Origin: Brachyspira hampsonii 30446
Lineage (GTDB): Bacteria > Spirochaetota > Brachyspiria > Brachyspirales > Brachyspiraceae
Assembly: GCF_000316195.1 (NCBI RefSeq)
Contig: NZ_JH994111.1
Coordinates: 1,705,791-1,769,790 of the forward strand
Length of the DNA stretch: 64,000 bases
Direction: 5' to 3'
The stretch's first letter is position 1. Each line of letters begins with the position of its first letter. The notes beneath the pieces are model-generated. The model searched no databases. It was not told the origin of the DNA and was given only the letters and a program-made list of their open reading frames with translations. This document shows positions 55,641 to 63,044 of the stretch, piece after piece. The translations under genes and the position numbers were made by a program.

Positions 55641-57800
55641 ATGAAAAAAGTATTTATTATATTATTCTTGTTTAATATTCTTTTGTATTCTAAGACTTTA
55701 GATGAATCGTTGTTTTCCGCTGTAGAAAATAATAATATAAAAAAAGTTAAATCATATTTAGAGCAAGGTGCAAACTGTAATGCATTAGATTCTTATGATA
55801 GAACAGCTTTAATAAATGCTTCTGTAAGAGGATATGATGATATAGCAAAATTACTTATAGAAGAAGGTACTGATGTCAATATTAAAGATAATGCAGGTGC
55901 TACAGCATTAATGTATACTGCTAGAAATACAAATTATGAAATGGTTGAATTTTTATTAAAAAATGGTGCTGATGTAAATATTAGAGATACATCAGGAGAA
56001 ACTGCATTATATTATAGTATTGAGCATAATAGTAGCGGACAAGAAAATGAAACAGAAAATGCTATAAAAATACTTAATTTATTAATAAAGTACGGTGCTG
56101 ATGTAAATACCAAAAACGATGAAGGAGCATCTCTTCTTGATGCATCCTATAGGATTTCAGAATCTTTTGATAAAAATAAAGAAATGTTTAAAATATTAGT
56201 TGAAAATGGTTTTGATTTAGAGTCAAGAATAAAGACGGGTAGTTCTGATTATGATTATACTCCTTTAATGATTGCTGTTTATAAAGAAGACTATGATATG
56301 GTTAAATATTTGCTTGATAAAGGTGCCAATCCTAATACAGCAAATAATGAAAACAAAACCGCTTTAATGATTGCTAATGATGATGGAAAATTTGATATTT
56401 CAAAATTACTTATACAACAAGGTGCAAATATAAACACACAAGATGAACACGGTCTTACAGCATTAATGAACGCTGCTATGATAGGAGACTATGAAATGGT
56501 TAAATTTTTATTAGAAAATGGTGCCAATATAAATACTAAAGACAATGATGGAAACACTGTATTATATTATAATATTCGCTATGATCATTACGAAAAAGAA
56601 GAAATGCTAGAAAATGCTAAAAAAATATTTAATTTATTAATAAAATACGGTGCTGATGTAAATACTAAAGACAATGATGGAGCATCACTTCTTGATAAAT
56701 CTTATAGACCTTCAACAGCATTGGCACAAAATAGAGAAATGTTTAAAGTATTAGTAGAAAATGGTTTTGACTTAGAATCAAGAATAAAGGCTGGGGAGCA
56801 TTATCCTCCTGATTATGATTATACTCCTTTAATGATAGCAGCTTTAAGAAATGACTATGATATGGTTAAATTTTTAGTTGAAAAAGGTGCTGATGTAAAT
56901 GCCAAAACACATTCTGAATATAGCTCAGTAGTAACTCCCCTATTACTCTCATTAGATTATGAACATATTGAATCTAGATATGATGAAAATTCATCTGTTG
57001 CAGAATTTTTAATAAATAATGGTGCTGATATAAATGTAAAAAATAATCATGGAGAGACACCTTTAATGTATGCTTCCAAACTTCATAATATAAAAGTGGT
57101 AGAACTTCTAATACAAAAAGGTGCTGATATAAATGCTTTCAATAATTATGGAAATACAGCCTTAATATATGGTGTAAATAATTTAGAAACAGTAAAATTA
57201 TTAGTGGAAAATGGTGCAGATGTAAACTTTTATAAAGGAGGAAGTACTGCTTTAATATCAGCATGTGACTATAGTCCTGAAAGAAATATAGATGTAATAA
57301 AATATTTAGTTTCAAAAAAAGCCAATATAAATGCACAAGATAATGAAGGAGACACAGCTTTAAATAAAACTCTTGATACTTCAGATGAAGGCAGTATTGA
57401 CATACTAGACTTTGAAATAGCTAATTTTTTAATAGATCAAGGTGCTGATGTAAACATAAAGAATAAACGAGAATATACTCCTTTGATATATCTTGGTATG
57501 GGTGAAGGTAATTTTAATAATAAAAGTTTTCAGGAATATCGTATAAAATTAGCTCAAGTTTTATTAGAAAAAGGTGCAGATATTAATGCTCAAGATTATA
57601 ATGGATACACTTCTTTAATTTGGGCTTGTGCATCATCAGGATCAAGGTTTGCTGAACCATATGTTAAATTTCTAGTAGAAAAAGGAGCTGATGTAAATAT
57701 AGAAGATGACCATGGAGATACTGCTTTAGATATGGCAGAGAATCTTAAACTTAGAAAAATTGCAGGTATTCTAAAAAAAGCTCAAAGAAATAGAAACTAA
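55641..57800 (+). CDS. Large secreted ankyrin-repeat protein
   Basis: 719 residues with a signal peptide (K-K-V-F-I-I-L-F-L-F-N-I-L-L-Y-S) and about 19 ankyrin repeats across the full length. Two long, nearly duplicate blocks begin at E-G-A-S-L-L-D (56121) and D-G-A-S-L-L-D (56676), 185 codons apart, each with insert E-N-G-F-D-L-E-S-R-I-K. GGAGG precedes the ATG. A periplasmic or surface protein-binding scaffold; the target is unknown. Confidence 0.9.
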   Translation: MKKVFIILFLFNILLYSKTLDESLFSAVENNNIKKVKSYLEQGANCNALDSYDRTALINASVRGYDDIAKLLIEEGTDVNIKDNAGATALMYTARNTNYEMVEFLLKNGADVNIRDTSGETALYYSIEHNSSGQENETENAIKILNLLIKYGADVNTKNDEGASLLDASYRISESFDKNKEMFKILVENGFDLESRIKTGSSDYDYTPLMIAVYKEDYDMVKYLLDKGANPNTANNENKTALMIANDDGKFDISKLLIQQGANINTQDEHGLTALMNAAMIGDYEMVKFLLENGANINTKDNDGNTVLYYNIRYDHYEKEEMLENAKKIFNLLIKYGADVNTKDNDGASLLDKSYRPSTALAQNREMFKVLVENGFDLESRIKAGEHYPPDYDYTPLMIAALRNDYDMVKFLVEKGADVNAKTHSEYSSVVTPLLLSLDYEHIESRYDENSSVAEFLINNGADINVKNNHGETPLMYASKLHNIKVVELLIQKGADINAFNNYGNTALIYGVNNLETVKLLVENGADVNFYKGGSTALISACDYSPERNIDVIKYLVSKKANINAQDNEGDTALNKTLDTSDEGSIDILDFEIANFLIDQGADVNIKNKREYTPLIYLGMGEGNFNNKSFQEYRIKLAQVLLEKGADINAQDYNGYTSLIWACASSGSRFAEPYVKFLVEKGADVNIEDDHGDTALDMAENLKLRKIAGILKKAQRNRN

Positions 57801-59370: not shown

Positions 59371-60408
59371 ATGACAGATAATTTAAATAACAGCGAAAAT
59401 GGTATAAGTAATGAAGTAGCTAATGCCAGCAGGGATTTACAGGCCATATCGGAAGCCTCTAAAATGGCCCTTGATGTAGTAAATGCTATAAAAAATGAAA
59501 TAAAAAAAGTAATAATCGGTCAGGAAAACATGCTCGATAAACTTCTATTAGGAATTATATGCGATGGGCATGTATTATTAGAAGGAGTACCCGGACTTGC
59601 AAAAACATTAACTGTAAAATCATTGGCAAGTACAATAGATGCAAGCTATAAAAGAATACAGTTTACACCGGATTTGCTTCCTGCAGATATAGTAGGTACT
59701 GAAATTTATGATATAAAAAATTCAGTATTTCTTCCTAAACAAGGACCTATATTTTCTAATATAATATTAGCAGATGAAATAAACCGTTCGCCTGCTAAAG
59801 TACAGTCAGCACTTTTAGAGGCTATGGGAGAACATCAGGTTACTATAGGAGATAAAACATATAAACTTCCTGATGTATTTTTGGTATTGGCAACTCAGAA
59901 CCCTATAGAACAGGAGGGAACATATCCTCTTCCTGAAGCTCAGGTTGACAGATTTATGCTTAAAGTCATAGTAAAATACCCTACTAAAAGCGAAGAAAAA
60001 ACCATAATAAAAAACATGTCATCTTCCAAACCTGCAGAATTAAAGCCTATAACAACTATAGAAACTATAGAAAAATTAAGAAAATTAGCCAATCAAATTC
60101 ATATAGAAGAAAGGCTGATTGATTATATAGTGAACATTATAGATGCGACAAGAAATCCTAAAGATTATAAACTTCAAAGCGAATACATAGAATACGGAGC
60201 TTCACCAAGAGCAGGAATATATTTGACTAAAGCGGCAAAAGCAAATGCTATGATGCAGGGCAGAGGATTTGTAATGCCTGAAGATATAAGAGCTGTTGCC
60301 TATGAGATATTAAGACACAGAATAAGCGTAAGCTATGAGGCACAGGCTGAAAATGTAACAAGCGATATGATAATAGAAAGCCTGCTTGCCAATATAAATG
60401 TACCTTAA
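59371..60408 (+). CDS. MoxR-type AAA+ ATPase
   Basis: 345 residues with the MoxR Walker A E-G-V-P-G-L-A-K-T (71-79), Walker B I-L-A-D-E-I-N-R, sensor I A-T-Q-N-P-I-E-Q-E-G, and A-Q-V-D-R-F. MoxR ATPases act as chaperones that insert metals or activate VWA proteins. Usual partners (DUF58, BatA, BatB) are absent here; the gene is followed only by a tandem duplication of its own 3' end. GAGGGA precedes the ATG. Confidence 0.92.
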   Translation: MTDNLNNSENGISNEVANASRDLQAISEASKMALDVVNAIKNEIKKVIIGQENMLDKLLLGIICDGHVLLEGVPGLAKTLTVKSLASTIDASYKRIQFTPDLLPADIVGTEIYDIKNSVFLPKQGPIFSNIILADEINRSPAKVQSALLEAMGEHQVTIGDKTYKLPDVFLVLATQNPIEQEGTYPLPEAQVDRFMLKVIVKYPTKSEEKTIIKNMSSSKPAELKPITTIETIEKLRKLANQIHIEERLIDYIVNIIDATRNPKDYKLQSEYIEYGASPRAGIYLTKAAKANAMMQGRGFVMPEDIRAVAYEILRHRISVSYEAQAENVTSDMIIESLLANINVP

Positions 60409-60857
60409 AATATTAGTTTATAAAAATGAGTGATTATTAAAGCCTGATTATTAAGTTAATCTGGCTTTTTTATTGTATATGATTAATATAATATAAAAAT
60501 TGTGAGCGTCTGCTAAGTTTACTTTGCAGACATTTTCAGCGAACAATTTTTATTAGCAATAATAGAAAGCCTGCTTGCAAATATAAATGTCCCTTAAAAT
60601 ATTAGTTTATAAAGAATGATTGATTATTAAAGCCTGATTATTAACTTAATCCGGCTTTTTTTATTGATATGATTAATTGTAATGATAAAAATTGTGAGCG
60701 TCTGCTAAGTTTACTTTGCAGACATTTTCAGCGAACAATTTTTATTAGCAATAATAAAAAGCCTGCTTGCAAATATAAATGTACCTTAAAATATTAATTT
60801 ATAAAAAAATGATTGATTGTTAAAAAGCCTGATTATTAAGTTAATCGGGCTTTTTTA
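60372..60857 (+). repeat. Tandem ~190-bp duplication of the moxR 3' end
   Basis: A block starting AATAGAAAGCCTGCTTGC recurs at 60372, 60561 and 60753 (as AATAAAAAGCC). Each copy holds the last moxR codons (E-S-L-L-A-N-I-N-V-P-stop; the third has K for E), then a hairpin AAGCCTGATTATTAA with GGCTTTTTT. The first two copies also contain a near-identical 57-base block (60495-60551 and 60687-60743) with AAAAATTGT/ACAATTTTT and GTCTGC/GCAGAC stems. No ORF of its own. This occupies the whole gap to 60872. Confidence 0.85.
60441..60472 (+). terminator. Terminator of moxR (first copy)
   Basis: AGCC-TGATTA / TTAATC-TGGCT stem followed by six T. Further copies at 60631-60662 and 60826-60856; the last also reads as a terminator for the minus-strand nuclease gene. 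Confidence 0.75.
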
Positions 60858-60872
60858 TTATAAAAATCTTTA

Positions 60873-61487
60873 TTAAATAATAATTTCATTATTGTAAGTT
60901 ATATCATGCTTTATAATATCTAGAGCATCAAAATTAAATGGATAGATTTTTAAAAGTACATTATTAATTATTCTATTTTGTTTAAATAATCTTCTTAGAT
61001 TTGTATTGTCTTTTATCTTATTTGTACTGTTATCTTGTTTTAAATTATTATTAGAATTAATATTATTTTTATATACTAGATAAAACTTTATATTTTCTAT
61101 ATCATTAGAATAGGCTAAAAAAATAGACCTTATTCTTAAATATGCACCTAAAAACTGTTTATGAAGTTCTTTTAAATCTTCATCATGAATATCATTTTTT
61201 AATTCTATTATATGCAAATCAAACTTACCATTTTTATTTTTATTTATAATCACTGCATCAGCACATTTATTCATTCTTAAATGATTAAATTTTTTATTAC
61301 CTTCTATATCCGAACTGCAAATAGATTTAGAGCTTAATTTTATACGGCATTCCATTTCTGATTTTTCATCTTTTATAGTAAAAATATCTTCTATCACATC
61401 AATTTTGCACATATTATTATCAAATAAATATCTTTGATTATCTATAAAAGCTGTATTATAAAGTTTATCAAAATCGTCCATAATCAT
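60873..61487 (-). CDS. Probable PD-(D/E)XK nuclease paired with an ATPase
   Basis: 204 residues, not recognised as a named family. A restriction-nuclease-like core is visible: D77 in C-A-D-A-V-I, then beta-strand F-D-L-H-I-I-E95-L-K97-N. A long basic tail rich in asparagine and lysine follows. Its ATG overlaps the stop of the ATPase by one base, so both are coupled. D...E-x-K spacing and context are the sole basis for a nuclease call; it could instead be a binding partner. There is no signal peptide. Confidence 0.55.
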   Translation of the reverse strand: MIMDDFDKLYNTAFIDNQRYLFDNNMCKIDVIEDIFTIKDEKSEMECRIKLSSKSICSSDIEGNKKFNHLRMNKCADAVIINKNKNGKFDLHIIELKNDIHDEDLKELHKQFLGAYLRIRSIFLAYSNDIENIKFYLVYKNNINSNNNLKQDNSTNKIKDNTNLRRLFKQNRIINNVLLKIYPFNFDALDIIKHDITYNNEIII

Positions 61488-62860
61488 TAATCTTCATTTA
61501 TTGCATCATATTCTAAAGAAGCATTATTTATATATTTATGAAATGTTTCTATATAAAATCCTGTTTCTCTGTCGCCTTTCAATTCCTTTATAGTTGTAAT
61601 ATCATTATCATCAGTATCAAATTGATATATCCTAATTTTGCCTATATCTATAGTGTCATCTTCTGTATATGAATACTCTTTTAATATTTGATTTTTTTTA
61701 TTATCATCTTTCATACTATGAAGAACTGCCATATTATTTATATGTTCCAATATTGTGTCGCTATGAGTGGATATGATGACATTTCTTTTTTTATTAACTA
61801 AGTTTATTAATACACGAGCTAATTGTTTCTGCAATTTTAAATGCAATGATAATTCAGGCTCCTCAATAAATAAATCACCAAATATATTGTAATATTTCAA
61901 AAATAAATATAATGGTGCTACTTCTGTAATAACAGCAGAACATAAATGCATAGGCACTTTCAAATCGCTATTACTAGGCTGATAATACATAGCATTTGTT
62001 TCTTTATTGATATTAATTTTGCCTTTTAATATATTGTTTTCAAGTATTTCTATTATATCTTTAAAGTCTTCGTTTTCCTCATAATTATAAGATAAATCTA
62101 TTAAACTATTAATAAAATCTATAATAGGTTTCTGAAATAGAGTTTTTTCTTTTTTCTCTCCAATGCTGAATTGCTGCATATTTGATATTTTTGATAATTC
62201 TTTATAAGTTAATAAAAAACCAGTTCTTGATGTTGGTAAAAATTTTAATGCAAAAGAAGAAGAATTATTTTCTAATATATTAGAAAATATATTTCTCATT
62301 ATAAAAATATGATCAATACTATCATCATTCTCTATTTCTGATATAGAAAAAGAATGTAATTTACGAATAAATAGAGATTTTTTAGTAATAAAAATATTAA
62401 ATAAATAATTTGAATAATCAAAATATATACTTTCTAAATTTATTACATGCTCATTATCATTAAAAATAAATTTTAAAATTTCTGTTTTATATTTATCTAA
62501 TAATTTATTTGAAATATTATAGAATATATTAAGTTCATTTTTTGATAGTAAATGATTATTTTCAGTATCTGAAAAAATCTTAAATATATCTTTACCACGA
62601 TTTATATTCTTATTAATTAAGATATACTTTTCTATTATATCATGCATTTCTCTATATTCTTCCAAGCTGTAAATGAATTCTTTATCTTGAAACATAATAT
62701 CTGCAATATCTTTACTATATTTCATCAATCCGTATATCAATGTCATCAAATAGCTTTTTCCGCTGTTATTATCACCTACAAAAAGTATAAAATTAGAAAG
62801 TTCTATTTCTGCCTCTTTTATCTTACCGAAATTTTTAATTATTAGCTTGGAATATGACAT
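61487..62860 (-). CDS. AAA (ABC/OLD-like) ATPase
   Basis: Start at ATG 62860, preceded by AAAAGG; a longer frame from 62947 is less likely. The 457-residue ATPase has Walker A G-D-N-N-S-G-K-S at 29-36, then a long helical insert in place of the coiled coil, Walker B L-F-I-E-E-P-E-L-S-L-H and the H-loop I-I-S-T-H-S-D. This is the SMC/OLD-like form common in phage-defence pairs. No TOPRIM domain is present, so any nuclease is the separate downstream protein. Single-base overlap with it. Confidence 0.85.
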   Translation of the reverse strand: MSYSKLIIKNFGKIKEAEIELSNFILFVGDNNSGKSYLMTLIYGLMKYSKDIADIMFQDKEFIYSLEEYREMHDIIEKYILINKNINRGKDIFKIFSDTENNHLLSKNELNIFYNISNKLLDKYKTEILKFIFNDNEHVINLESIYFDYSNYLFNIFITKKSLFIRKLHSFSISEIENDDSIDHIFIMRNIFSNILENNSSSFALKFLPTSRTGFLLTYKELSKISNMQQFSIGEKKEKTLFQKPIIDFINSLIDLSYNYEENEDFKDIIEILENNILKGKININKETNAMYYQPSNSDLKVPMHLCSAVITEVAPLYLFLKYYNIFGDLFIEEPELSLHLKLQKQLARVLINLVNKKRNVIISTHSDTILEHINNMAVLHSMKDDNKKNQILKEYSYTEDDTIDIGKIRIYQFDTDDNDITTIKELKGDRETGFYIETFHKYINNASLEYDAINED

Positions 62861-63044
62861 TTTCAAAATACCTTTTTTAATTTGTATTATTTTATAACAG
62901 AATTTTATCTTTAACAAGTATTTTAGTATCAAAACAGCATTAAACAACTTAACATAATATTTTTTATATAAATTCTATAAAGCAATTTTTGTAATTACCG
63001 AATATATAGTATCAATAAATTTATAAAATTAGGGAGTGTATTAT

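Follow-up and report, generated by a model that had tools for sequence, protein, structure and literature searches.

WonAB of Vibrio cholerae, the nearest experimentally tested relative of the gene pair described here, is encoded by the WASA-1 prophage and combines an OLD-ABC ATPase with a PD-(D/E)xK nuclease (Adams et al. 2025; PMC12137116). It protects against ICP1 and E. coli phages, and both genes and both active sites are required: K34, R182, E300 and H333 are essential residues of WonA, and the K71A mutant of WonB is inactive (PMC12137116). WonB is toxic only alongside active WonA. When WonAB acts, genomic DNA stays intact, translation is stopped and phage infection is aborted (PMC12137116). 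Its authors relate WonAB to two other systems: PD-T4-4, carried in E. coli by an integrative element (Vassallo et al. 2022; PMC9519451), and an operon termed 'OLD-ABC ATPase + novel REase' (PMC12137116). The latter, as cited there, comes from an in silico survey, with Anaerovibrio lipolyticus, a Firmicute, as the example.

Does a spirochaete chromosome carry a module of this kind? We analysed a stretch of 64,000 nucleotides from Brachyspira hampsonii 30446, hereafter the window, in which a first-pass annotation had placed an ATPase gene and a nuclease gene (here A and B) at 60873-62860, overlapping by one base. Both open reading frames were confirmed, on the minus strand (Table 1), and base 61487 is common to the stop codon of A and the start codon of B. 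In the 94% identical relative G005, ATT replaces the first ATG of B and the one-base overlap is not conserved. The start common to G005 and the window is M3 of B (61481), which may be the conserved start. The conserved feature is thus the tight linkage of A and B, not the overlap; elsewhere B mostly starts at most about 30 bases from the stop of A.

Table 1. Features of the A/B locus, in window coordinates.
Feature	Coordinates	Strand	Length and boundaries	Description
Gene A	61487..62860	-	457 aa; ATG at 62860, stop 61489-61487	OLD/PtuA-type ABC ATPase, putative infection sensor (WonA / PD-T4-4_A-like)
Gene B	60873..61487	-	204 aa; ATG at 61487, stop 60875-60873	PD-(D/E)XK-fold putative nuclease effector
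Intergenic region, divergent gene A / flgG	62861..63044	.		Right-hand deletion boundary of pair-less relatives falls here

The pair sits between flgG and the moxR operon on the Brachyspira chromosome (own genome G000, 3.04 Mb). Next to it, at 60370-60856, lies a tandem repeat with a unit of 192 bases (2.5 copies, 92% matches), in which the moxR-like gene's 3' end recurs together with its terminator-like region; its copy number differs in the relative G004, and the core unit is found at no other place in the genome. A few kb away, 55641-57800 encodes an ankyrin-repeat protein of 719 residues whose N-terminus is signal-like.

Residues 1-370 of A are covered by Pfam AAA_15 (8e-22). The best PADLOC model is PD-T4-4_A (4.2e-43), which aligns residues 5-448 of A with positions 2-448 of a 460-position profile, followed by PDC-M47A (1.2e-31); both models are matched by all 37 A homologues tested. 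The protein carries a Walker A motif GDNNSGKS (K35), an LPxSRTG motif (R212), a Walker B motif FIEEPE (E333/E334) and an H-loop THSD (H366), and in the alignment of the 37 homologues these numbered residues are among the invariant ones. Its AlphaFold2 model (pLDDT 88) comprises an ABC core, into which helices are inserted at about residues 49-133, and a short C-terminus, 409-455, modelled as strand-strand-helix. A Foldseek search with this model returned PtuA of Septu as the best match (5.5e-11), and also the retron Eco8 OLD protein, Rad50 and AriA. Neither a TOPRIM domain nor an SMC or coiled-coil hinge was found in A by Pfam search or in the model. The original description of A as an OLD-like ATPase devoid of both is therefore borne out by Pfam, by the fold matches and by the model; an SMC/Wadjet-like reading was rejected, as there is no coiled coil.

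For B, a D77...E95-x-K97 core had been proposed. The residue numbers proved right: D77 is kept in 81/81 homologues, E95 in 80/81 (Asp in the remaining one) and K97 in 74/81; at position 111, 79/81 have Q or K. Such conservation across 81 homologues indicates that the motif is not due to chance. Among 20 Brachyspira homologues the invariant columns are E62, G63, F67, D77, I93, E95, Q111 and R118. The small protein had also been put forward for structure prediction, and its nuclease core is predicted to fold: the AlphaFold2 model, built from 55 sequences, reaches a pLDDT of 85.7 and a pTM of 0.86. D77 stands just before strand 78-83, E95 and K97 lie in the adjacent strand 89-99, and Q111 and R118 in helix 102-122. 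In this model the placement of the active-site residues is that of a PD-(D/E)XK core, in a topology predicted with confidence.

Database searches with B returned far less. Window B alone gave no match in Pfam, PADLOC, NCBIfam, PHROGs or PDB sequences, and the B profile gave none in PDB sequences. Foldseek of the model against PDB and viral structures yielded nothing below 1e-3 (best E 0.03); the weak matches are mostly DNA nucleases (BsmI, NucC, EcoO109I, AddAB), and PD-(D/E)XK enzymes, the first three of these included, are over-represented at the top, not significantly so. Over the catalytic core, the B profile aligns distantly with a family of nucleases carried by prophages (hhalign 90%, E 1.6e-6). 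B is accordingly called a putative nuclease, on its motif, its modelled topology and its homology to this second nuclease family, with no significant structural match. A weak phylum-wide match to B, L047, was rejected: it arises by chance within a peptidase-like gene that is unrelated, and A is absent there.

Known partner families recognise some relatives of B. Among 55 B-family members, the PD-T4-4_B models PDLC04037 and PDLC04034 are matched by 4 and 1, respectively (best 5e-6), and the two models of PDC-M47B by 7 and 2 (best 1.7e-5; 2e-4 for the Brachyspira paralogue L018). In PADLOC neither PD-T4-4_B nor PDC-M47B is matched by window B. The profile search of both proteins that the first-pass annotation had proposed thus placed A, through PD-T4-4_A and PDC-M47A, and left window B without a family; current annotation would miss B.

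How strictly do the two genes keep together? Within the Brachyspira family A is present in 17/29 genomes, and B lies next to each intact copy. Scanned with the A alignment, a genome collection yielded 80 loci, most of them from Lachnospiraceae and other Clostridia, the remainder from Geobacillus relatives, Planctomycetes, Synergistes and a Muribaculaceae. Outside Brachyspira, 63 loci have an ORF directly after A, and 59 of these ORFs are homologous to B; counted by genome, B occurs at the A locus in 33/36 non-Brachyspira genomes, and the single extra copy of B (in G321) is also accompanied by A. Searches that started from B found it in 9/397 genomes of Lachnospiraceae and 2/398 of the wider phylum, with A directly upstream in 11/11 loci. 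Every intact B found adjoins an A (about 25 Brachyspira copies, plus Clostridia, Bacilli, Planctomycetes and Synergistes). The distance matrices of A and B are correlated (Mantel r 0.75, or 0.70 without Brachyspira; 0/2000 permutations), and the two genes are inherited together. Homologues of B scattered without the ATPase, a pattern that would have spoken against the pairing, were not seen in this gene-neighbour comparison across genomes: the two genes form a strict pair. At L122:6808-7500, the small ORF after an A homologue is of another type: it contains the stretch DVDVSII...IYKAIDLKR, is not matched by the B profile and may encode an alternative effector.

Close relatives of A are found on three predicted viral contigs, and more distant ATPase-nuclease pairs on others (L148-L150, L152-L154). 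The nucleases of these pairs share the motif of B (KSADGIVFV...YVAELKSS) and account for the hhalign match of the B profile given above; the A proteins align over their length (99.9%, E 8e-34). In plasmid and phage collections B was not found, and A gave one distant plasmid match. Among the 137 proteins encoded within two genes of the pair at non-Brachyspira loci, pyruvate kinase, an amidase and sugar enzymes recur, and in this descriptive count the only recurrent defence-type neighbours are two C5 methyltransferases. The relation to defence islands raised by the first-pass annotation did not materialise; none was seen, and the neighbours are mostly housekeeping genes.

The Brachyspira genomes record the history of the pair directly. 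The window-type pair always adjoins flgG, and the pair-less relatives G004, G024 and G008 keep the flgG-moxR neighbourhood. In blastn comparisons of the flgG locus their alignment resumes near 62886-62949; the G004 junction is so diverged that loss and original absence would both fit. All that G017 retains is the last 28 residues of B, and G007 has a fragment of A, 25 residues long; G025 has a broken B. These remnants indicate that the pair was once present and has been lost repeatedly. Orthologue dN/dS values are mostly 0.2-0.4 for both genes, and A and B are under purifying selection.

Several copies of B are truncated or frameshifted beside an apparently intact A, including those of G317 and G318. 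The same was observed in many Clostridial loci (L092, L094, L103, L107, L109, L097, L075 and L086), where the ATPase appears full-length; the truncated Clostridial nucleases suggest frequent inactivation of the effector, or recoding. A second pair in the genome of the window (G000:C3:65642-67648; L002, L165) has an A that is 40% identical and a B with a premature stop. It is flanked by a dicarboxylate-symporter-like gene and a ferredoxin-oxidoreductase-like gene.

Is the catalytic lysine itself dispensable? In six copies of one Brachyspira clade (L016, L018, L023, L024, L026 and L027) K97 is replaced by S or T, giving E-x-S/T, and B of L117 also has S/T at this position. The lysine-less Brachyspira copies are intact, with dN/dS of about 0.1-0.56, and several lysines or arginines lie within ten residues after the lost position. 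Either another lysine or arginine takes over, or the effector works differently. That the B proteins of Brachyspira and Clostridia are an effector subfamily apart, distinct in target or trigger, and that one Brachyspira clade of it has lost the catalytic lysine and is still intact under purifying selection, is a speculative and rather doubtful proposal. If true, the loss would mean, within such defence, that the active-site lysine has migrated or that the effector is not nucleolytic. Whether the chemistry of the nuclease is required in every case could be tested on this naturally lysine-less clade.

What, then, would the pair do? With a probability of roughly 0.7, we regard it as an abortive-infection module on the chromosome, of the same kind as WonAB and PD-T4-4, in which A licenses B to cut host-vital nucleic acid, RNA being likelier. 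The OLD-type ABC ATPase A would dimerise around ATP, sense a phage-induced change and hold or stabilise B. Once activated, it would license this PD-(D/E)XK nuclease to cut translation-machinery RNA (tRNA or rRNA) more probably than DNA, and the cell would be killed or arrested, its growth stopping before phage is made. The defence function, the A-dependent activation and the RNA target are those most likely by analogy with WonAB (and PD-T4-4): because WonAB leaves DNA intact and stops translation, we infer an RNA target and licensing by A for this pair also. Against this reading count the flgG/moxR site, the mostly housekeeping neighbours of the Clostridial pairs, the failure of window B to match any family model or, significantly, any solved structure, and the smaller size of WonB.

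A DNA target would be expected if A and B made up a Septu-type defence nuclease, whose ATPase scaffold positions the nuclease on phage DNA without suicide of the cell. The closest solved folds of A, PtuA of Septu and retron-associated PtuA/OLD ATPases, would suit such an arrangement, as would the prevalence of DNA nucleases among the weak Foldseek matches of B. Those matches are not significant, however, the effector is not an HNH protein, and WonAB spares genomic DNA and stops translation; we therefore consider a Septu-type mechanism unlikely. The strict pairing, tight linkage and patchy distribution, and the lineages with remnants only or a broken B, are also what a toxin-antitoxin or selfish pair might display, with A neutralising a toxic B and neither gene serving against phage. 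In WonAB the ATPase is no simple antitoxin, WonB being toxic only with active WonA (PMC12137116), and we judge this explanation improbable for A and B; loss of B beside an intact A (G025; the truncated B of G317, G318 and others) fits either view. Least probable is a housekeeping pair for DNA repair or processing, made of a Rad50/OLD-like ATPase and a nuclease, even with Rad50 among the good fold matches of A and housekeeping genes often nearby. Presence in 17/29 genomes of the family, 9/397 of Lachnospiraceae and 2/398 of the wider phylum, with repeated losses and paralogues, is the behaviour of an accessory system, not of a housekeeping one.

On the abortive-infection reading, a kind of phage defence that was recently proven to work, in Vibrio and E. 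coli, would be found in spirochaetes and many gut Clostridia as well. There PADLOC does not detect the nuclease half, so that such systems are under-counted. The curated A/B pairs and their invariant residues provide direct mutational targets. Apart from the wider range, these targets and the lysine-less clade, the finding is an expected one.

How does the locus relate to the systems already named? That the effector is neither HNH, TOPRIM nor UvrD had been noted at the outset, and the pair is indeed not Septu, PARIS or Gabija. Among solved folds PtuA comes closest to A, but PtuB is an HNH nuclease; B has no HNH match and PD-(D/E)XK topology, and membership of Septu was rejected. PARIS likewise joins an OLD-like ATPase to a second component, AriB, which is a TOPRIM protein, and was rejected for want of a TOPRIM effector. 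Gabija, also an OLD-like ATPase with a second component, differs in the TOPRIM of GajA and the UvrD-like helicase GajB; A, at 457 aa, is matched only in its ATPase part, no helicase is adjacent, and this system too was rejected.

Like WonAB, the pair is a two-gene operon of an OLD-ABC ATPase and a PD-(D/E)XK nuclease: the ATPase has Walker A, arginine, Walker B and H-loop and no TOPRIM, and the nuclease gene adjoins it. By published residue numbers, not sequences, K35, R212, E333 and H366 of A correspond to K34, R182, E300 and H333 of WonA, with an R-to-E spacing of 118 in WonA versus 121 in A and an E-to-H spacing of 33 in both. The catalytic lysine of WonB has its counterpart in K97. WonB, at about 16 kDa (16.1 kDa), is smaller than B (about 24 kDa) and is likened to it by description, not by sequence; moreover, the V. 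cholerae locus is on a prophage, whereas the Brachyspira pair occupies a chromosomal site beside flgG. With PD-T4-4 the pair shares gene order, a full-length match of A to PD-T4-4_A and matches of some B relatives to PD-T4-4_B. The PADLOC definition asks for matches of both proteins; the ATPase matches and window B does not, so PADLOC would not call the system. The same holds for PDC-M47, where A matches PDC-M47A and B-family members match PDC-M47B, but window B does not; PDC-M47 is itself a PADLOC phage-defence candidate only, with no experiment found in the literature searched. The 'OLD-ABC ATPase + novel REase' operon, as far as its citation describes it, has the same two components, and most relatives of the pair are also Firmicutes; by description only, the two are likely to be the same subfamily. 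Since window B is unmatched by PD-T4-4_B while family members are matched modestly, the pair is a divergent member rather than a strict PD-T4-4. The initial suggestion of an undescribed variant is only partly right: window B matches no family model, but the combination is already described as WonAB and PD-T4-4. We therefore class the pair as a divergent member of the WonAB/PD-T4-4 kind that had not been labelled before, and not as a new system.
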